DNA of 64,000 nt from Simplicispira hankyongi (lineage in GTDB: Bacteria; Pseudomonadota; Gammaproteobacteria; Burkholderiales; Burkholderiaceae_C). The translations under genes were made by a program, and so were the position numbers. Location: the NCBI RefSeq assembly GCF_003570885.1, contig NZ_QXJC01000003.1, forward strand, positions 310,001-374,000, read 5' to 3'. Under the pieces are notes generated by a model. The model had not been told where the DNA came from. It did no database searches and saw only the letters and a list, made by a program, of their open reading frames with translations. This document shows positions 45,677 through 53,759 of this stretch, piece after piece; within the stretch, counting starts at the first letter, position 1; each line of letters opens with the position of its first letter.

Positions 45677-46912
45677 TCAAAAGAGCCCTGGCTGGCTGGC
45701 GGGTGCCGGCAGGTCGCTGGAGCTCGGCGGGGTTTGCCGCGGACCATTGTCCAGCCGGCTCAGCCCACCCACGCGCACGCCCAGCAGCCGCAGGCGCTGG
45801 GTGAGCGGCGCGCGCTTGAGGCACAGCCCAGCCGCGTGGCGGATGGCAGCCGCATCCTGCGTCGGCACGGCCAGCGTGTGGTCGCGCGTGACCGTCGAGA
45901 AGTCGGCATAGCGCAGCTTGATGCCTATCCCCCGCCCGACATAGCCCTTGCGCTGCAGGTCGGCCGCCACCTGCTCGCACAGCGACGTGAAGATGGCCCC
46001 CAGCTCCCGGCGGTCGCGCACTGCGTGCAGGTCACGCTCGAAAGTGGTCTCACGGCTCATGCTCACAGGCTCGCTGTGCGTCTGTACCGGGCGGCTGTCG
46101 CGTCCCCAGGCCGATTCGTGCAGCCAGGCACCGGTAGCGCGGCCGAAATGCTCGACCAGCCAGTCTTTCTGGCAGGCCGCCAGCTCACCGATGGTGGTAA
46201 TGCCGTGGCGCGCCAGCTTTTCCCCGGCCTTGGGGCCAATGCCGTTGATCTTGCGGCAGGCGAGCGGCCAGATGCGCTGCTGCAATTCGTGCTCGTACAG
46301 CACCGCGACGCCGTTGGGCTTGTCGAATTCGCTGGCCATCTTGGCCAGCAGCTTGTTGGGTGCGACGCCGAGCGAACAGGTCAGGCCCGTGGCCTGAAAA
46401 ATCGACTTCTGGATCAGCCGCGCCAGCACGCGCCCGCCTTCGCGCTGGCCGCCGGGGACGTCGGTGAAGTCGATGTACACCTCGTCCACGCCGCGGTCCT
46501 CCATGACCGGCGCGATCTCGGCAATCGTCCTTTTGAACAAGCGCGAGAAACGGCGCACCTCGTCAAAATCCACCGGCAGCACGATGGCCTGCGGGCATAG
46601 CCGGGCGGCTTTCATCATGCCCATGGCCGAGCCCACGCCAAACTGCCGCGCAGCGTAGGTGGCCGTGGTGATGACGCCCCGGCCGACGTAGTCCTTGAGC
46701 AGCGGAAAGTCGGCTACGGGAATAAAACAGCGCTCGCGCCCGCCGCTGCCGTCCGGGCCTTGCAGCAGCAGCTCGTCCACCGCCCGCCGCGCGCCGCCAA
46801 TCACCACCGGCAGCCCCTTGAGTTGCGGGTAGCGCAGCAGTTCGACAGAGGCGAAGAACGCATCCATGTCGAGGTGGGCAATGCGGCGCAGCTTGCCGCC
46901 GGTTGCCGGCAT
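45677..46912 (-). CDS. dinB: DNA polymerase IV
   Basis: 411 residues from the ATG at 46912 (MPATGGKLRR); a GTG at 46957 could add 15. Y-family motifs: HLDMDAFFASVELLRYPQLKG (metal-binding Asp), GVDEVYIDFTD with the second catalytic acid, CSLGVAPNKLLAKMASEFDKPNG, and helix-hairpin-helix INGIGPKAGEKLARHGI. The little-finger domain carries VSRETTFERDL-like sequence (SMSRETTFERDL). The C-terminus ends QPGLF, a beta-clamp binding motif. It performs translesion synthesis. An 11-residue Gly-rich insertion (LLLQGPDGSGGRER) after VVIGGARRAVDE is seen in related beta-proteobacteria. Confidence 0.95.
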   Translation of the reverse strand: MPATGGKLRRIAHLDMDAFFASVELLRYPQLKGLPVVIGGARRAVDELLLQGPDGSGGRERCFIPVADFPLLKDYVGRGVITTATYAARQFGVGSAMGMMKAARLCPQAIVLPVDFDEVRRFSRLFKRTIAEIAPVMEDRGVDEVYIDFTDVPGGQREGGRVLARLIQKSIFQATGLTCSLGVAPNKLLAKMASEFDKPNGVAVLYEHELQQRIWPLACRKINGIGPKAGEKLARHGITTIGELAACQKDWLVEHFGRATGAWLHESAWGRDSRPVQTHSEPVSMSRETTFERDLHAVRDRRELGAIFTSLCEQVAADLQRKGYVGRGIGIKLRYADFSTVTRDHTLAVPTQDAAAIRHAAGLCLKRAPLTQRLRLLGVRVGGLSRLDNGPRQTPPSSSDLPAPASQPGLF

Positions 46913-47096
46913 GGCAGGCGAGGCGTCTGGGCCAGGATTTGTCTCGGAAACGGTCACGGCCGGTATTGTGCGCGGCGGCGCAGCGCTTGAGCGGCTCGCA
47001 AAGAAGCCGGGGCTCTGCCGTTGACAGCATGGAGAGCCTCTGCCGCTCCACCACGGCGGCGAGGGCAGCGTACGCTTGCTTGCGCACCTGGATTTG

Positions 47097-47155
47097 CACA
47101 TTTTCGGCAACAGCGCTTGCACTGCTTATGCAAGAAGCTATTAAAAAAAGAGCAA
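47097..47155 (+). repeat. Dispersed palindrome copy 9, between dinB and the globin gene
   Basis: TTTTCGGCAACAGCGCTTGC, a short loop, TTATGCAAGAAGCTATTAAA and AGAGCAACT. TTGCA and TGCAA pair as compensating arms. It ends 11 bases from the globin stop codon. Confidence 0.65.
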
Positions 47156-47165
47156 CTCGGAACGC

Positions 47166-47630
47166 TCAGTGCCGCGTGATGATGTCCCGGTGCATGGGCG
47201 CGAGCAGCGCCAGCAGACGATTTTGTTGGCGGAAGGCGATGCCCTGGGCGTCCATGGCGCGCTGCAGTTGCTCGACCAGGGCGTTGAAGTCGCCTTTGTT
47301 GATCTCCATGTCGGCGTGCACCTCGCGCATGGTGCCACCGTGGTAGGTGCAGGGGCCGCCGCTCAGCACGCAGAACTGCTCGGCCAGGCTTTCCTTGAGC
47401 GCGGCGGGCTTGGTGTCCTTGAACTGGGGGCCGATGCGCGGGTCACGCACCAGGCGCTCGACAAAATCATCGACCAGGCGGTCAATTCCGGCTTGCTCGC
47501 CCAGCGCCGCATACAGGCCGGAGGGTGCGGCAGCAGGCGCAGCGGCGGGTGGCACAGTGGTCTGTGCGTGGGCCAGCGTGAGGGTGGCGCCTGACACCAT
47601 CAGGGTGCAGCACAGGGCAAAAGCTTTCAT
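47166..47630 (-). CDS. Exported group 1 truncated haemoglobin
   Basis: 154 residues. A signal peptide (MKAFALCCTLMVSGATLTLAHA, cleavage after AHA) and an Ala/Pro linker precede a TrHb1 domain (about 36-150): GLYAALGEQAGIDRLVDDFVERLVRDPRI, then the GGPCTYHGGTMREVH region whose last His fits the proximal haem ligand. Export of a globin to the periplasm is uncommon. It is the last gene of the minus-strand sigma/anti-sigma/DUF3034 set, 13 bp after DUF3034. It could bind O2 or NO or act as a haem redox protein; none of this can be decided from sequence. Confidence 0.9.
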   Translation of the reverse strand: MKAFALCCTLMVSGATLTLAHAQTTVPPAAAPAAAPSGLYAALGEQAGIDRLVDDFVERLVRDPRIGPQFKDTKPAALKESLAEQFCVLSGGPCTYHGGTMREVHADMEINKGDFNALVEQLQRAMDAQGIAFRQQNRLLALLAPMHRDIITRH

Positions 47631-47643
47631 GGGGTTCCCCGCA

Positions 47644-48582
47644 TCAGAAGGCCACCTGGGCCGAAAGGTAGGCGCCGCGTTGGCGCCGGTCGCCCGTGAT
47701 GCCGGGGACGATGCGCCCCAGGTCCGCCCAGGCCAGCGTGAGCGAGAGGTGCTTGCTCGGCGCCCAGGCCACGAAGAGATCTTTCCATGCGTCTTCGCGC
47801 AGCGCCGCACCCAGGCCTGCCGCGCGGCCGGTAGCTTGCAAGTTGTCAGGCTTGAAGCGCCATTCCGCGCCAACGGCAAGGTCGTGGCGGAGCAGCCAGG
47901 CCACCGAAAACTCGGGCTGCAGGCTGCGCCCGCCCCGGCCCGGCGCGGCGGCCCCAAAGCCGAGCAAGCCGTTCTGGTTGGCGCGGGTGGAGCGCAGCGT
48001 GGCGTTCAGCAACAGGCCTTTGTCCAGCACCAGCTTGGTGGCGCTGACGTAGAAATCGGTGGACTGTTCGCTGGCACCCAGAAAGTCGAACACCGATTGC
48101 AGCGATCCCGGGTGCACGCGCTTGTGCTCCAGGCCGATGGACATCTGTGGCATCCAGGTGTCGGCGTCCAGGATGGCATCGCCGGCGACGCGCACTTTGG
48201 CGCCGAGGATATCCATGCGGATGTGCTGGCCCGGCTGCACGCCGAACGGTGCAATGCCGTTGAGTGCCACCGCCGCGCTGGCGTCGAAATCCTGTCGGGC
48301 CACCGACAACTCGACACGCTCGTTCCACGCCAGGGCGGCGCCGTAGCTGGTGAGCACGTAGTCGTGCGTGGCGGCACGGGTGGTGAAGGCACTGGCCCCC
48401 CATTCGCCCTCCGTGGCATTGCTGCCGATGACGGCCCATGGCGTGATGCCGCCACCCGCCGTGCCGGTGATGCTGCTGACGCCACCGGTGAGCAGCAGTT
48501 TGCCGGTTTCGGCCTGTGCCGGCGGGCCCATCACGGCCATTGTGGCCAGCGCGGCGAGCAACTTCGGCGTGCTGTTTTTCAT
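47644..48582 (-). CDS. DUF3034 family exported protein
   Basis: 312 residues from the ATG at 48582 (MKNSTPKLLAALATMAVMGPPAQA, signal peptide). The mature part is rich in Gly, aromatic and alternating residues (LLLTGGVSSITGTAGGGITPWAVIG, DYVLTSYGAALAWNERVELSVARQDF) and ends in a terminal phenylalanine (LSAQVAF), the pattern of an outer-membrane beta-barrel. DUF3034 has no known function. It lies between the anti-sigma gene (28 bp upstream) and the globin gene (13 bp downstream), so it is likely controlled by the ECF sigma factor. Confidence 0.88.
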   Translation of the reverse strand: MKNSTPKLLAALATMAVMGPPAQAETGKLLLTGGVSSITGTAGGGITPWAVIGSNATEGEWGASAFTTRAATHDYVLTSYGAALAWNERVELSVARQDFDASAAVALNGIAPFGVQPGQHIRMDILGAKVRVAGDAILDADTWMPQMSIGLEHKRVHPGSLQSVFDFLGASEQSTDFYVSATKLVLDKGLLLNATLRSTRANQNGLLGFGAAAPGRGGRSLQPEFSVAWLLRHDLAVGAEWRFKPDNLQATGRAAGLGAALREDAWKDLFVAWAPSKHLSLTLAWADLGRIVPGITGDRRQRGAYLSAQVAF

Positions 48583-48610
48583 TCGAAGGCCCTGGTTCGT
48601 TACGAAAATC

Positions 48611-49411
48611 TCAAACGGTCTTCTGTATCCATTCGCCCGTGAACAGCACCGGCCCGGTCGGGCCGCCTTCGGACGGCACGCCTCCCTTGGGCTCCAGACT
48701 GATGGCGAGCATGGGAACGCCCTGCACCTGGCCCGCCGCCGCCGGCAAGGCCTGGGTGGCCGCGGCTGCCAGCACACCGAGCGAACGCGGCTTGCCGCCC
48801 GCGGGCAACGCCCAGAGCTGCAGGGAGCGGTCGGGCGGCACGGCAAAGCCCCCCACCCGCTGAAGGTGCAACTGCTGCGCCTGGGCATCGAAAGTGACCA
48901 GCAATTCGGCATGCGCCTTGTCGTCCCGCAACACCGCCACATGCGTGGTCTGCCCACGCGCCGCCAGCTCGGTCTGCAAGCTGGCAATCTGCTGGTGGGC
49001 CGATTCGCGCACGCTTCCCGTGACCTGTACCGCCACAACGACCGCAACCAGCGTGGCAAACGCCCCGCCGGCGGCAGCGCCCTGCCACAGCGCCAGTCGG
49101 CGCCACCAGCGCGGTGCGCTCGCTTGCGCGGCGCGGGGCTGGTCGGCCTGGTTCACTTGGTGGCGCAGGGCCGCGCGTTCGGCCTGCACCAGGTTGTCAA
49201 TGCGCATCCAGACGGCCGCAGGCGGCGGCTCGGGCGCCTGCAGCTCGGTCAGGCCCGCCCAGTGCGTTTGCCACAACAACGCTGCGGCGCGCACCGCAGG
49301 GTGTTCGCGCGCCTGGGCCTCAAAGCGGCGGCGCGCACCGCCGCGCAGCGTGCCCAGCGCGTAGCTGGCAGCGAGTGCCTGCAGCAGGTCGGGGTGTTGG
49401 TGGAGGTTCAT
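48611..49411 (-). CDS. Anti-sigma factor, RskA type
   Basis: 266 residues. The N-terminal zinc-less anti-sigma helix bundle (about 1-75; LAASYALGTLRGGARRRFE, VRAAALLWQTHWAGL) binds the sigma factor. A TM helix lies near 108-130 (GAAAGGAFATLVAVVVAVQV). The periplasmic RskA domain (about 150-262) has VTFDAQAQQLHLQRVGGFAVPPDRSLQLWALPAGG and ISLEPKGGVPSEGGPTGPVLFTGEW. It holds the sigma factor inactive at the membrane until an envelope signal. It is 7 bp after the sigma gene. Confidence 0.93.
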   Translation of the reverse strand: MNLHQHPDLLQALAASYALGTLRGGARRRFEAQAREHPAVRAAALLWQTHWAGLTELQAPEPPPAAVWMRIDNLVQAERAALRHQVNQADQPRAAQASAPRWWRRLALWQGAAAGGAFATLVAVVVAVQVTGSVRESAHQQIASLQTELAARGQTTHVAVLRDDKAHAELLVTFDAQAQQLHLQRVGGFAVPPDRSLQLWALPAGGKPRSLGVLAAAATQALPAAAGQVQGVPMLAISLEPKGGVPSEGGPTGPVLFTGEWIQKTV

Positions 49412-49418
49412 GGCGGGC

Positions 49419-49994
49419 TCAGGCGTAGCGGGCCATGCAGCCGCGCAACTGCTCCAGCCCGCGCCGGATCCAGGTTTTCACCGTGCCCAGCGGCAAGGCG
49501 AGCTGCAGCGCCAGCTCGCTGTGGCTCAGGTCGCGCAGGTAGGCCAGGCTGACCACCTCGCGCTGGCGCGCTTCCAAGCGCTGCAGGCAGGTGTGCAGGG
49601 CCGTCGCCTGCTCGCTGGCATCGGCCGCGTCCATGGGGTCGGGGGCGTCGCTCTCCAGCGCGTGGCCCAGGCTGTCGTCCAGCTCCTGGGTGCGGTCGGC
49701 ACGCGCACTGGCGTGTTTGCGCAAGGCGTCGAGCGCACGGCTGCGCACGATGACCCCGAGCCAGGCCAGCGGCGGGCTGAGCGAGAGCCGGTAATCGCCC
49801 GCGGCGCGCCAGACGGTGAGAAAGCTCTCCTGGAGCACATCTTCGGCCGCGTCGCGCCGGCGCAGGACGCGCATCGCCAAACCAAAGAGGCGGGGCGAGG
49901 TGAGGTCGTAGAGCGCACGCAACGCGGTTTCGTCGCGCTGCGCAATGCGGTCGATGAGCGTGACCAGTTCGGCATCGAAGGATGGTGGCGGCAT
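49419..49994 (-). CDS. ECF RNA polymerase sigma factor (sigK-like)
   Basis: 191 residues from the ATG at 49994 (MPPPSFDAELVTLID). Region 2 (about 20-85) contains LYDLTSPRLFGLAMRVLRRRDAAEDVLQESFLTVWRAAGDY; region 4 (about 130-185) contains LQRLEARQREVVSLAYLRDLSHSELALQLALPLGTVKTWIRRGLEQLR, a typical helix-turn-helix for the -35 element. It leads the operon with its RskA-type anti-sigma, DUF3034 and the globin, and probably activates that operon. The 123-bp upstream gap should hold its own promoter; I cannot define it by eye. Confidence 0.93.
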   Translation of the reverse strand: MPPPSFDAELVTLIDRIAQRDETALRALYDLTSPRLFGLAMRVLRRRDAAEDVLQESFLTVWRAAGDYRLSLSPPLAWLGVIVRSRALDALRKHASARADRTQELDDSLGHALESDAPDPMDAADASEQATALHTCLQRLEARQREVVSLAYLRDLSHSELALQLALPLGTVKTWIRRGLEQLRGCMARYA

Positions 49995-50117
49995 GCATGG
50001 ATTGTGGTGGAGGAAGGCAATTCTTGCTTTCCGTATACGCACCGCGCCGCCGACTGGATTCACCAGGCTGCCACCGGTCGCCAGAAGCCACCAGGGACGC
50101 TGGCTCTGCCGCTCAGA

Positions 50118-51281
50118 TCACGGCTTGGGGTAGGTGCCCGGCAGCAGGATGCCCTCATCCACCGTGTCAATGTCGGTGCGGCCGCAGAAGGCCATGGTCA
50201 GGTCGAGCTCGCGGCGGATGATTTCCAGCGCGCGGGTAACGCCCAACTCACCGTAGGCACCCAGGCCGTAGAGGAAGGCCCGGCCGATCATGGTGCCGCG
50301 TGCGCCGAGCGCGCGCGCCTTGAGCACGTCCTGGCCGCTGCGGATACCGCCGTCCATCCACACTTCGATGTCCTTGCCCACCGCCTGCGCTATTGAAGGC
50401 AGTGCGGCAATCGACGAGGGCGCGCCGTCGAGCTGGCGCCCGCCGTGGTTGCTGACGATGAGCGCATCGGCGCCGCTGTCGGCGGCCAGGCGGGCGTCTT
50501 CCGCGTCCATGATGCCCTTGATGATCAGCTTGCCGCCCCAGCGCTTCTTGATCCACTCGACGTCGCCCCAGTTGAGTTCCGGATCGAACTGCTCGGCCGT
50601 CCAGGAGGCCAGCGACGACATGTCGCCCACGCCCTTGGCGTGGCCGACGATGTTGCCAAAGCTGCGCCGCTTGGTTCCCAGCATCCCCAAGCACCAGCGT
50701 GGCTTGGTGGCCAGGTTGATCATGTTGGCCAGCGTGGGCTTGGGTGGCGACGACAGGCCATTCTTGATGTCCTTGTGCCGCTGGCCGAGGATCTGCAAAT
50801 CCAGCGTGAGCTGCAGCGCGCTGCAGCCGGCGGCCTTGGCGCGGTCGATCAGGCGCTCGATGTAGTCGCGGTCGCGCATCACATAGAGCTGGAACCAGAA
50901 GCCCGGGCCGGCGTGCTCGGCCACGTCCTCGATCGAGCAGATGCTCATGGTCGAGAGCGTGAAGGGCACGCCAAACGCCTTGGCGGCGCGCGCTGCCAGG
51001 ATTTCACCGTCGGCATGCTGCATGCCGGTCAGGCCGGTGGGGGCCAGCGCCACCGGCATGGCAACGTCCTGGCCGATCATGGTGCTGCGGGTGGTGCGGC
51101 CCGTCATGTTCACGGCCACGCGCTGGCGCAGCTTAATCGTCTGGAACTCGTCGATGTTGGCGCGGTAGGTGCTTTCGGTCCAGGAGCCCGAGTCGCAGTA
51201 GTCGTAGAACATGCGCGGCACGCGGCGTTTGTAGACGCGGCGCAGGTCTTCGATGCAGGTCATGGTGGAAAGGTCGCTCAC
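50118..51281 (-). CDS. lldD: FMN-dependent alpha-hydroxy acid dehydrogenase, L-lactate dehydrogenase-like
   Basis: 387 residues from a GTG at 51281 with AGGAG seven bases upstream; further upstream ATGs give an unconserved cysteine-rich extension. The family barrel is evident: RRVPRMFYDYCDSGSWTE, VALAPTGLTGMQHADGEILAARAAKAFGVPFTLSTMS, FQLYVMRDRDY, LIIKGIMDAEDARLAADSGADALIVSNHGGRQLDGAPS (catalytic His and FMN-binding Arg) and VWMDGGIRSGQDVLKA. It oxidises L-lactate or a related 2-hydroxy acid to the 2-keto acid at the inner membrane. No lldP permease or lldR regulator is adjacent, so the substrate is not certain. Confidence 0.92.
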   Translation of the reverse strand: MSDLSTMTCIEDLRRVYKRRVPRMFYDYCDSGSWTESTYRANIDEFQTIKLRQRVAVNMTGRTTRSTMIGQDVAMPVALAPTGLTGMQHADGEILAARAAKAFGVPFTLSTMSICSIEDVAEHAGPGFWFQLYVMRDRDYIERLIDRAKAAGCSALQLTLDLQILGQRHKDIKNGLSSPPKPTLANMINLATKPRWCLGMLGTKRRSFGNIVGHAKGVGDMSSLASWTAEQFDPELNWGDVEWIKKRWGGKLIIKGIMDAEDARLAADSGADALIVSNHGGRQLDGAPSSIAALPSIAQAVGKDIEVWMDGGIRSGQDVLKARALGARGTMIGRAFLYGLGAYGELGVTRALEIIRRELDLTMAFCGRTDIDTVDEGILLPGTYPKP

Positions 51282-51409
51282 GCTGGTCTCCTGGCAGGTT
51301 TCTAAGTGCTGGCAATCGTAGGGGCACGGCGCGGCGCGCACCATCAAAATTATTTGTGCGGCCGCGGAGCAAATTTAAATCTGGCGCACTGGCAGCGCTC
51401 GAAAATTCA

Positions 51410-51473
51410 AACAAAAATGGCCTGTAGCGCTTATTTGGAAAGCGTTTACAGCTATTTTTTCAATAGCATTTTA
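51410..51473 (+). repeat. Dispersed palindrome copy 10, at the 3' end of the CACHE-PAS-GGDEF gene
   Basis: AAAAATGGCCTGTAGCGCTT, a short loop, AAAGCGTTTACAGCTATTTT and AATAGCATTTTAG. The last three bases form the stop codon of the gene at 51471-53759, so the element abuts the coding end. It lies upstream of lldD. Confidence 0.82.
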
Positions 51474-53759
51474 GGTGCCTTGCAACACGGGGGCCGGCGA
51501 ACCCGGCAACGCCAGCACTTCGGGTTCTGCAGCCTGTCCCCGGTAGCAGCGCACCTGCATGCGCCCACCGCGCTTGGCGGCGTACAGGGCCGTATCGGCA
51601 TGGCGGGCCAGTTCCTCGTAGTCACTGCCGTGCTGCGGGAACAACGCCAACCCGGCACTCAGACCCATTTTCAGCATCTGCCCGTTGAGAACAAAGGGCT
51701 CCTGGCACACACCCAACACCTTGCCGGCGATGGCAGCCGCCTGCCGAGGGTCTTCCAGCCCGGGGAGCAGCAGCACGAATTCGTCCCCACCCTGGCGGCA
51801 CACGGTGTCGGACTGGCGCATGGCGGCCACCAGGCGGCGCGCAAACTGCACCAGGAGCTGGTCGCCCGCGTCGTGGCCCAGGGCGTCGTTGATCTGCTTG
51901 AACCCATCGAGGTCGAGGTACATCACGCCCAGGCCCTTGGCTTCGCGGCGCGCCAGCGCCAGGGCGTGCTGCGCACGGTCCTGCAGGAGCACGCGGTTGG
52001 GCAGATCGGTCAACGCGTCGTACTGCGCCAGGTGCGCCATGCGCTCGGCCATGGCCATGGTTTCGGTCACGTCGTGCAGCACCATCACCGCACCAGTGAG
52101 ACGGTGCTCGCGGTCGATGATGGGGCAAGCCGACTCTTCCACCTCGAAGCGCTGGCCGTCCTTGCGGTGCAGCACCACGCCGCGCGTGGGGCCGCAGGCC
52201 GCCTGCGTGGCCAGCGCCACGCGCAGCGGGCTGGGCTGGGTCTGCTGGCCATTGGCGAGGTACAGCGGCGCGACCTCGTCCACGTCGCACCCGGCGGCGT
52301 CGAAGGCCTGCCAGCCTGTCAGGCGCTGGGCCACCGGGTTGAGGTAGGTGATGCGGCCTTGCGCGTCGGCGCAGACCACCGCATCGCCAATGGACTGCAG
52401 GGTCAGGCGCATGAGTTCCTTTTCCTGAAAAATCTCATCTTCCATGCGCTTGCGCTCGGTGATGTCGGTCATCTGCACAAAGATGCCACGCACCAGACCG
52501 TTGCTGCTGCCCCGGTCCGGGGTGTAGCTGACCTGCATGTGCCGCTGCTGCCCGTTGGCATCGGTAAGGGTCCGCTCAAACAGCTGTGCGCGCCCTTGCA
52601 AAGCCTGTTCGAGGTATGGCCGGACAAAAGCGTAGTCTTGTTCACCCAGAAATTCCTGCGCCAGCAGCCCGCGAAACGCTTCAGGCGAGCGCCCGAACAT
52701 CGCACTGGTGGTCTGGTTGACGAAACGGTTGCGCTGCTCGGTGTCCCAATAGCCGACCATGGAGGGCAGGTTGTCGAGAATGGTATGCAGGTCGCGTTCT
52801 GCCTGGTGCAGTTGCCCGGCCAATTGCTGACGCTGCTGCAGTTCACGCACAAAGAGCACCGCCAGTCCCAGGCAGGCCAGCATCAGCAGCAGGGCAAAGC
52901 CGCCCACCAGCGCAGCATGGCGACGCCAGCCGGCCAGGATTTCATCCGTTGACTGCCCAATGTTGACCACCAGCGGAAAGTCACCCACCTGCTGGAAGGC
53001 ATACAAGCGTTCCACACCATCGATCACGGCCCGGCTGGTGAAGGTGCCGCTGGGGCTCGCGGTAATGCGGGCGAGGTTTTCCGAGCCTGCCACGCTGCGC
53101 CCCACGTCCCCTGCCGCCCACGGCAGGCGTGCGATCAACGCGCCATTGGTCTGGTACAGGTTCAGGCTGCTTTGCGGCCCGATCTGGACGGCGGCGAACA
53201 GCGTGTGGAAATAGTCGAGCCGGATGGAACCCACCACCACCCCACCAAAGCTGCCGTCCTGCTTGAACCAGGCACGGCTGACCGGCAGACAGTCCCGACC
53301 CGTCAGCCGCGAACGGATGAGATGGCCAATGAACAAGCCCTGGCGCCCCCCGGACTGAAAGGCACGGAAATAGTCGCGGTCGGAAAAATCCGTTCCGCCC
53401 GGTCCGAGCCCGCCAGAGTCGAAGATCCGCTGGCCCTGTGCGTCCAGCACCAGCACAGCCGACAGCCCCTCGGCGCGCAGGGAGTGGTCAAACAGCACGC
53501 GGTTGCGCAAATCAGGACTCAGGGCCATGACCTGCGGATTCGCAAGATCGCCCGCCAAGCCCTGCAGCGACGGATCGAGGGTTCTGAGCAGTGTGGCAAT
53601 GGACTGCTGCAGGGCATAAGCCAAATTGGCGCCGGTGCTCTCGGCGTGCCGCAAGGCATGGGAGCGCATCGCCCAGATCGCTTGCGCAAACAAGGCCCCG
53701 ATGCCCAAGGCCACCAGCAAAGCCAGCAGGATCAGTCGACGGGAGGCAGGTTGGCGCAC
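51471..53759 (-). CDS. Membrane sensor diguanylate cyclase (dCACHE-PAS-PAS-GGDEF)
   Basis: 762 residues. A TM helix (about 8-30) and a second (about 287-310) flank a periplasmic double-CACHE domain (DSGGLGPGGTDFSDRDYFRAF, GVVVGSIRLDYFHTLF). Two PAS domains follow (about 328-445 and 455-580; TDITERKRMEDEI and LHDVTETMAMAERM ends) and a GGDEF domain (about 590-745). The active site GGDEF is intact, and RxxD (RQSD) lies five residues upstream for product inhibition. It should synthesise c-di-GMP in response to a periplasmic solute. It starts 60 bp from the pbpC stop and appears to be a separate unit. Confidence 0.93.
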   Translation of the reverse strand: MRQPASRRLILLALLVALGIGALFAQAIWAMRSHALRHAESTGANLAYALQQSIATLLRTLDPSLQGLAGDLANPQVMALSPDLRNRVLFDHSLRAEGLSAVLVLDAQGQRIFDSGGLGPGGTDFSDRDYFRAFQSGGRQGLFIGHLIRSRLTGRDCLPVSRAWFKQDGSFGGVVVGSIRLDYFHTLFAAVQIGPQSSLNLYQTNGALIARLPWAAGDVGRSVAGSENLARITASPSGTFTSRAVIDGVERLYAFQQVGDFPLVVNIGQSTDEILAGWRRHAALVGGFALLLMLACLGLAVLFVRELQQRQQLAGQLHQAERDLHTILDNLPSMVGYWDTEQRNRFVNQTTSAMFGRSPEAFRGLLAQEFLGEQDYAFVRPYLEQALQGRAQLFERTLTDANGQQRHMQVSYTPDRGSSNGLVRGIFVQMTDITERKRMEDEIFQEKELMRLTLQSIGDAVVCADAQGRITYLNPVAQRLTGWQAFDAAGCDVDEVAPLYLANGQQTQPSPLRVALATQAACGPTRGVVLHRKDGQRFEVEESACPIIDREHRLTGAVMVLHDVTETMAMAERMAHLAQYDALTDLPNRVLLQDRAQHALALARREAKGLGVMYLDLDGFKQINDALGHDAGDQLLVQFARRLVAAMRQSDTVCRQGGDEFVLLLPGLEDPRQAAAIAGKVLGVCQEPFVLNGQMLKMGLSAGLALFPQHGSDYEELARHADTALYAAKRGGRMQVRCYRGQAAEPEVLALPGSPAPVLQGT

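Follow-up and report, generated by a model that had tools for sequence, protein, structure and literature searches.

What brings an exported globin into an operon headed by a sigma factor? The question is raised by four genes on the minus strand at positions 47166–49994 of a stretch of 64,000 nucleotides from Simplicispira hankyongi (contig NZ_QXJC01000003.1), hereafter the window. They encode an extracytoplasmic function (ECF) sigma factor, an RskA-type anti-sigma factor, a protein of the family DUF3034 (a domain of unknown function) and a truncated globin. An original prediction from the sequence alone had read them as one operon, in which an envelope-stress sigma factor controls a beta-barrel and a globin of the periplasm. 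The four-gene arrangement holds, with each family matched by Pfam, and our analysis adds a probable promoter in front of the operon and two partners encoded on another contig of the same genome, a copper-like protein and a GGDEF-EAL protein. The central result is that DUF3034 and the globin are one fixed unit, found in about one in ten of the Proteobacteria sampled.

The DUF3034–globin pair

Three samples were used: a survey by even draw of 398 Pseudomonadota genomes, a relatives set of 26 globin loci found by sequence search (several of them on short contigs), and a second draw of 60 genomes of the window's family. DUF3034 (PF11231) was matched in 39 survey genomes and unmatched in 359. Six of the 39 loci belong to the window's own family, 27 to other families of its class and six to other classes, and one match (G261) is partial, covering profile positions 87–255. 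The globin gene lies directly downstream of DUF3034, on the same strand, in all 39 genomes, with a median gap of 15 bp over 65 loci, and the same order was found in 25/26 relatives-set loci, the remaining one (L027) being a fragment. DUF3034 was also present in 19 of the 60 family genomes, and the pair in each of the six plasmid records examined out of 13 found. Neither protein had a match in PHROGs.

Every DUF3034 genome has a Bac_globin match, as against 166 of the 359 others (Fisher p 9e-13). A profile of this particular globin clade (A3, threshold E≤1e-40) picked out 41 of the 398 genomes. DUF3034 is present in 39 of these, so that the clade occurs without a DUF3034 match in 2/359 genomes (G328 and G154). 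The next match stood at 4.7e-26, and since survey members are part of the A3 profile, this gap in score weighs more than the E-values themselves. A survey of co-occurrence, on which the original prediction had been staked, therefore confirms the linkage (39/39). The accompanying view that exported truncated globins are rare has to be given up, because a clade found in 41/398 genomes is not rare in the phylum.

One survey genome holds a second copy of the pair (L127, G078:C3) in which stops break both genes, which suggests that the two decay together. More distant exported-looking globins with the same cysteine spacing were seen at three loci (L164, L165 and L166), where the profile found no DUF3034 in the fetched stretch. 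Genomes of another class (family f39 and loci L169 and L170) have up to seven truncated-globin matches; at L169 and L170 two of the globins are adjacent, and the N-terminus of one of them is of the membrane type by eye.

The DUF3034 protein matches its profile over the full length, and its model has 12 strands (predicted local distance difference test, pLDDT, 71 from 22 sequences) and a sequence that ends in the C-terminal aromatic AQVAF. The first 50 Foldseek rows are outer-membrane barrels except 9j9l and 9j9n, titled artificial metalloproteins. In VIA-align the closest folds were the amyloid secretion channel FapF (Z 20.1, root mean square deviation (rmsd) 3.4, 234 residues aligned), KdgM (Z 18.0, rmsd 2.0, 170 aligned) and the COG4313 channel (Z 17.9, rmsd 3.8, 233 aligned). 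With barrels at the top of both lists of structure matches, the model bears out the predicted beta-barrel as a fold. FapF and the KdgM/NanC porins are 12-strand barrels as well, but identity in the FapF rows is at most 14%, a likeness of shared fold only. A conserved segment, TGG...EGAAGGG..PW, lies near the N-terminus in the low-confidence part of the model and could be a plug.

The globin matches Bac_globin (PF01152) with 49.7 bits against a cut-off of 21, and its model (pLDDT 81) has the 2/2 globin fold, with TMt of 0.83–0.94 over the first 25 Foldseek rows. It is nearest to HbN of Mycobacterium tuberculosis, with the TyrB10Phe/GlnE11Val mutant ranked first by a small margin over the wild type. 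With HbN it shares the family, the fold, HisF8, the CD1 Phe and about 28% identity; it differs in its predicted export, in lacking TyrB10 and GlnE11, in an invariant CX6C and in its constant DUF3034 neighbour. We aligned 64 globins (25 from the relatives set, 38 from the survey and the window's own), leaving out L027 and the broken copy L127, and set the B10 and E11 columns using HbN mutant chains. HisF8, the CD1 Phe, the two cysteines (HbN positions 63 and 70), Gly74 and Met77 are invariant in 64/64. The HbN-type combination of TyrB10 and a polar GlnE11 is absent from all 64: B10 is aliphatic in 61 (V21, L18, M14, I7, A1; the others W1, T1, N1), E11 is L57 or F7, and E7 is L29, F20, V13 or I2. 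With no TyrB10, and Leu or Phe at E11, the distal pocket would be apolar. Such pockets speak against stable binding of O2 and against dioxygenation of the HbN kind; they would allow nitric oxide (NO) or CO to bind, as in cytochromes c'. Oxygen handling, one of the functions first proposed for the globin, is accordingly disfavoured by the alignment, as are O2 storage and HbN-like NO dioxygenation. The two invariant cysteines in a protein that appears to be exported suggest a disulphide, which the pair of the C87/C94 type probably forms.

In the window both N-termini resemble signal peptides by eye and by a simple script (MKNSTPKLLAALATMAVMGPPAQA-E for DUF3034, MKAFALCCTLMVSGATLTLAHA-Q for the globin). 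Across the family, a regular-expression script with inspection by eye found a lipobox in 21 of the 27 globins from other families of the class. The 31 relatives-set and own-family loci gave AxA in 24 and a lipobox in seven, six with a later AxA by eye; the six loci of other classes gave AxA in four, a lipobox in one and neither in one. Signal-type N-termini across the family, many of which look like those of lipoproteins, thus support the predicted export.

Copper-like protein, sensor and sigma factor

The pair has a third companion. A predicted exported protein with the ligand pattern His...Cys-x2-His-x2-Met, invariant in 22/22 aligned sequences, was found genome-wide in 38 of the 39 DUF3034 genomes, G078 being the exception, and in 22 of the 359 others (profile A5; Fisher p 3e-36). 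In a 52-row alignment the first His is present in 52 rows, the Cys in 47 with five gaps, the second His in 46 with six gaps and the Met in 45 with seven gaps. We call the protein copper-like because the one member that matched Pfam Copper-bind did so at 17.1 bits, below the cut-off of 21.2; two others had no match. Three of four annotated plasmid records name it 'methylamine utilization protein'.

Within the fetched survey stretches the copper-like gene stands near the pair in 32/39 genomes, and a gene for a sensor with the domains dCache_3-HAMP-GGDEF-EAL in 30/39 (23/27 of other families of the class, 6/6 of other classes and 1/6 of the window's own family). Most loci from other families of the class read copper-sensor-DUF3034-globin, those from other classes have divergent pairs, and 20/26 relatives-set loci read DUF3034-globin-copper. 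Five of the six plasmid records carry both additional genes. Caballeronia SBC2 and C. grimmiae show DUF3034-globin-copper-sensor, as does pSBC1_4 of Caballeronia SBC1, where the annotation reduces the sensor to a short piece; in Novosphingobium EMRT-2 the arrangement is divergent, with a copper-like gene annotated 'carboxypeptidase regulatory-like' that matches A5 at 3.9e-63. The window locus is without a copper-like gene, which at L003 and L004 directly follows the globin. On contig C17 of the window genome (L176:7944-10975) a copper-like gene overlaps a dCache_3-GGDEF-EAL gene, and in these two the window operon probably has its partners in trans. That the pair hardly occurs without the copper-like protein, but 22 genomes have the latter without DUF3034, fits a flow of electrons from copper to haem and, equally, a shared sensor.

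The sigma factor has its best PDB match in SigK of M. tuberculosis (4NQW, 4.1e-25). Its two cysteines align with the SigK pair, 50 residues apart, and both are present in 11/11 aligned sequences (ten relatives and the window). It scored 136.4 bits with the NCBIfam SigK model PRK09646, below the cut-off of 226, and we therefore call it SigK-like, not SigK. The RskA-type gene stands beside it. In SigK, Cys133 and Cys183 affect the binding of RskA and both are needed for activity (PMC7509140).

Comparison of upstream regions gave a probable promoter motif, TGMATCC-N15-NCGTA. DUF3034 has it upstream in 20 of the 31 relatives-set and own-family loci, where mononucleotide shuffling gave a mean of 0.002 and a maximum of 1, and in 8 of the 17 tested relatives from the 60-genome draw. 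It lies at most 300 bp before the ECF gene in 8/11; random 320-bp pieces contain it in 10/20000 cases. A GGAA-type ECF dyad gave one stray match. The original prediction had called for a sigma target motif, and the one found supports ECF control. The description as an envelope-stress sigma factor was too general: the pair is of the SigK–RskA type, and ECF and RskA genes occur near DUF3034-globin in 9/26 relatives-set loci and 2/39 survey genomes, as against 30/39 for the sensor. ECF and RskA-like genes also lie upstream of DUF3034-globin, without the motif, on a plasmid of the alphaproteobacterium Novosphingobium sp. KACC 22771 (L344), possibly an independent association.

The motif reaches beyond the operon. 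The window genome has five matches, against one for a reversed control: before the DUF3034-globin operon, a FAS1 gene and msrPQ, and at two weaker sites. A tighter form, TGMATCCA-N14-GCGTA, gave 50 matches in 25 of the 60 family genomes against one for the reversed pattern, and the genes that follow are ECF (6), DUF3034 (5), FAS1 (2), copper-like (1), MsrP (1) and others (35). Twenty of these 35 were scanned. Glutathione peroxidase, Ferritin_2, CHRD, DUF3455 and DUF4394 were matched twice each; DUF4331, a CFA-synthase-like protein, DUF1365, an amine oxidase, HupE/UreJ, a hydrolase and PEP-CTERM once each; one target was below cut-off (DUF4148) and two were without a match. By eye many of the targets seem to be exported, and several are concerned with oxidants or lipids. 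DUF4331-like exported proteins recur after the motif in the window's family (L192 by scanning; L201, L220, L223 and L230 by eye). FAS1 has the motif in 3/29 relatives tested and in 3/6 of those with at least 70% identity, the window's own being a further match. MsrPQ was considered as a conserved regulon partner and rejected; the test covered 30 msrP loci, including the window's own, of 56 matches listed.

Possible roles of the module

Gene order, co-occurrence, residue conservation and the promoter motif can be read directly in the genomes, and they support the module well. From them we infer that the globin carries haem and is exported, that DUF3034 is a channel, that electrons are transferred and what the substrate may be; the chemistry, be it with NO, peroxide or haem, is our suggestion. 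We favour, at a little short of an even chance, a periplasmic haem–copper redox module at the outer membrane that is SigK–RskA-controlled in the window's lineage. DUF3034 would form a 12-strand outer-membrane channel with a plug-like N-terminal segment, and the globin, either periplasmic after export or held by a lipoprotein anchor, would hold haem b through HisF8 under an apolar distal pocket. The exported type-1-copper-like protein could reduce the globin haem, and close to the outer membrane the resulting couple might capture NO or a small oxidant, or reduce it, the substrate entering or leaving through DUF3034. In the window's lineage the SigK-like sigma factor and RskA would switch the operon on, with other proteins, from the TGMATCC-N15-NCGTA promoter; elsewhere, in the majority of genomes, the gene near the pair is that of a GGDEF-EAL sensor in place of the sigma factor.

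A number of results weigh against this model. DUF3034 lacks the motif upstream in 26 of the 27 loci from other families of the class and in 6/6 from other classes, and none of the six plasmid stretches, four of them of Caballeronia or Paraburkholderia, contains it. The motif is thus nearly confined to relatives, and ECF–RskA control characterizes some of the Burkholderiales and not the module. The copper-like gene of the window genome lies outside the operon, and none of the five motif matches is on C17. Profiles A3 and A5 were partly built from genomes in which they were then counted, and confidence in the barrel model is moderate, with pLDDT below 50 at residues 17–53. The apolar pocket has none of the polar residues of HbN, and differs also from the pockets of known peroxidases, which have polar residues. 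As for induction by oxidants, the msrP site that would link the regulon of the window genome to oxidative repair was absent in 29/29 relatives tested. In M. tuberculosis the oxidized SigK disulphide stabilizes the SigK–RskA complex (PMC7509140), so that activation by oxidants is not implied.

The strongest competitor makes the locus a sensor: the globin or the copper-like protein would perceive periplasmic NO, O2 or redox state and signal through the dCache_3 GGDEF-EAL protein to cyclic di-GMP (c-di-GMP) and biofilm, with a FapF-like DUF3034 as secretion or surface output. The frequency of the GGDEF-EAL gene near the pair outside the window's family, the dCache_3 and HAMP domains of its product, the closeness of the DUF3034 fold to FapF and the gene pair on C17 all speak for it. 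Yet only 1/26 relatives-set loci have the sensor near the pair (several contigs being short), the window operon has a sigma factor in its place, and a matching fold does not by itself establish a function; we consider this account unlikely, though worth keeping in view. Acquisition of haem or metal, with DUF3034 as outer-membrane gate, the globin as periplasmic haem carrier and the copper-like protein as a redox or metal-handling partner, seems to us quite unlikely. Uptake systems commonly combine a barrel with a periplasmic binding protein, and the fixed barrel-globin pair (39/39) would fit a hand-over. But Pfam finds DUF3034 and no plug domain on the barrel protein, the invariance of HisF8 and of the CD1 Phe suggests that haem stays bound, and the annotated neighbours in four plasmid records, the loci scanned for these, name no ABC transporter or Fur regulator.

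That the globin is an ordinary exported relative of HbN, binding O2 or dioxygenating NO, is improbable: the fold is intact and the closest structures are HbN, but TyrB10 and GlnE11 are replaced throughout the alignment and the first-ranked structure is a mutant at both positions, though wild-type HbN scores almost equally. Hardly credible, finally, is the idea that ECF and RskA genes have moved beside DUF3034-globin by chance and exert no control. It draws on the counts of 9/26 relatives-set loci and 2/39 survey genomes with these genes near the pair; however, the motif also precedes DUF3034 at loci with no ECF gene in the fetched stretch (Rhizobacter L013, L016 and L017, Curvibacter L015 and Caldimonas L022), and random pieces seldom contain it.

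Known systems resemble the haem–copper module in part. The SigK–RskA pairs of M. tuberculosis and Yersinia enterocolitica, the latter in an mpt83-sigK-rskA cassette (PMC7509140), share with the window pair the redox cysteines, the RskA partner and a FAS1 target of the motif, and in M. bovis the SigK regulon comprises the FAS1 proteins MPB70/83 and a phospholipid synthase (PMC10540498). The window pair differs in lying upstream of DUF3034-globin, which is unnamed among SigK targets in the parts of PMC10540498 and PMC7509140 consulted. The RpoE2-ChrR system of Shewanella oneidensis has similar promoter elements (-35 TGATCC, -10 CGTATT) and, also in common, a periplasmic glutathione peroxidase and cfa in its regulon; unlike the window system it uses ChrR, not RskA, and the sections of the report seen name no globin or DUF3034 (PMC4336711). 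In cable bacteria a truncated globin is tied to proposed periplasmic electron transfer by fusion to a pentahaem cytochrome (PMC11976967), whereas the window globin is paired with a barrel and a copper-like protein. Literature matches listed for exported truncated globins, for globins with an ECF sigma factor, a cupredoxin or a methylamine utilization protein and diguanylate, for fasciclin with an anti-sigma factor and for DUF4331 with ECF did not include the module. 'DUF3034' in the figure 5 legend of PMC12548924, a figure about DUF3037, is apparently a misprint, and its use for an actinobacterial membrane protein of 251 aa (PMC4255298) looks like a slip or is unrelated. All components are members of known families or similar to such members, but the fixed barrel-globin pair, accompanied by a copper-like protein and by regulators that can be exchanged, has no counterpart among the systems listed and is apparently unstudied.

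DUF3034 thereby gains a fixed partner and a testable role, the exported globin clade proves widespread and not exotic, and a switch of the SigK–RskA type is linked to a haem protein. The combination points to periplasmic haem–copper chemistry coupled to an outer-membrane channel, and such a redox couple, if true, would be new in kind. It is possible, though we incline to doubt it, that DUF3034, the apolar-pocket globin and the copper-like protein make up an undescribed envelope electron-transfer system, a periplasmic small-ligand reductase or scavenger with its own outer-membrane channel, wired interchangeably to SigK–RskA or c-di-GMP.

Layout of the operon

From the sigma-factor gene to the globin gene the intergenic gaps are 7, 28 and 13 bp (Table 1). 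The S. hankyongi genome (3.7 Mb, 19 contigs) has one PF01152 and one PF11231 match. The nearest named loci are in Giesbergeria metagenome genomes, with identities at L003 of 97% for the ECF protein, 89% for DUF3034 and 75% for the globin.

Table 1. Features of the operon and its neighbours, in window coordinates
Feature	Position	Strand	Basis or remark
ECF sigma factor, SigK-like, 191 aa, C136/C186	49419-49994	minus	Pfam Sigma70_r2 and r4_2; PDB 4NQW
RskA-type anti-sigma factor, one membrane helix by eye	48611-49411	minus	Pfam RskA_C 78.5 bits (cut-off 29.4)
DUF3034, predicted outer-membrane beta-barrel, signal peptide, conserved glycine-rich N-terminal segment	47644-48582	minus	PF11231 304.8 bits (cut-off 25), profile 1-255 of 255
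Group-1-like truncated globin, predicted exported: H105 (HisF8), F70 (CD1), V57 (B10), L78 (E7), L82 (E11), C87, C94	47166-47630	minus	
Probable SigK-type promoter TGAATCCA-N14-GCGTA	50036-50062	minus	41 bp before sigma-factor ATG; motif common to relatives
PolIV-like gene	45677-47122		after operon
FMN-dependent dehydrogenase gene	50118-51347		before operon

The second gene upstream of the operon, at 51471-53759 on the minus strand, encodes a membrane protein of 762 aa that is PAS-GGDEF-like by eye.

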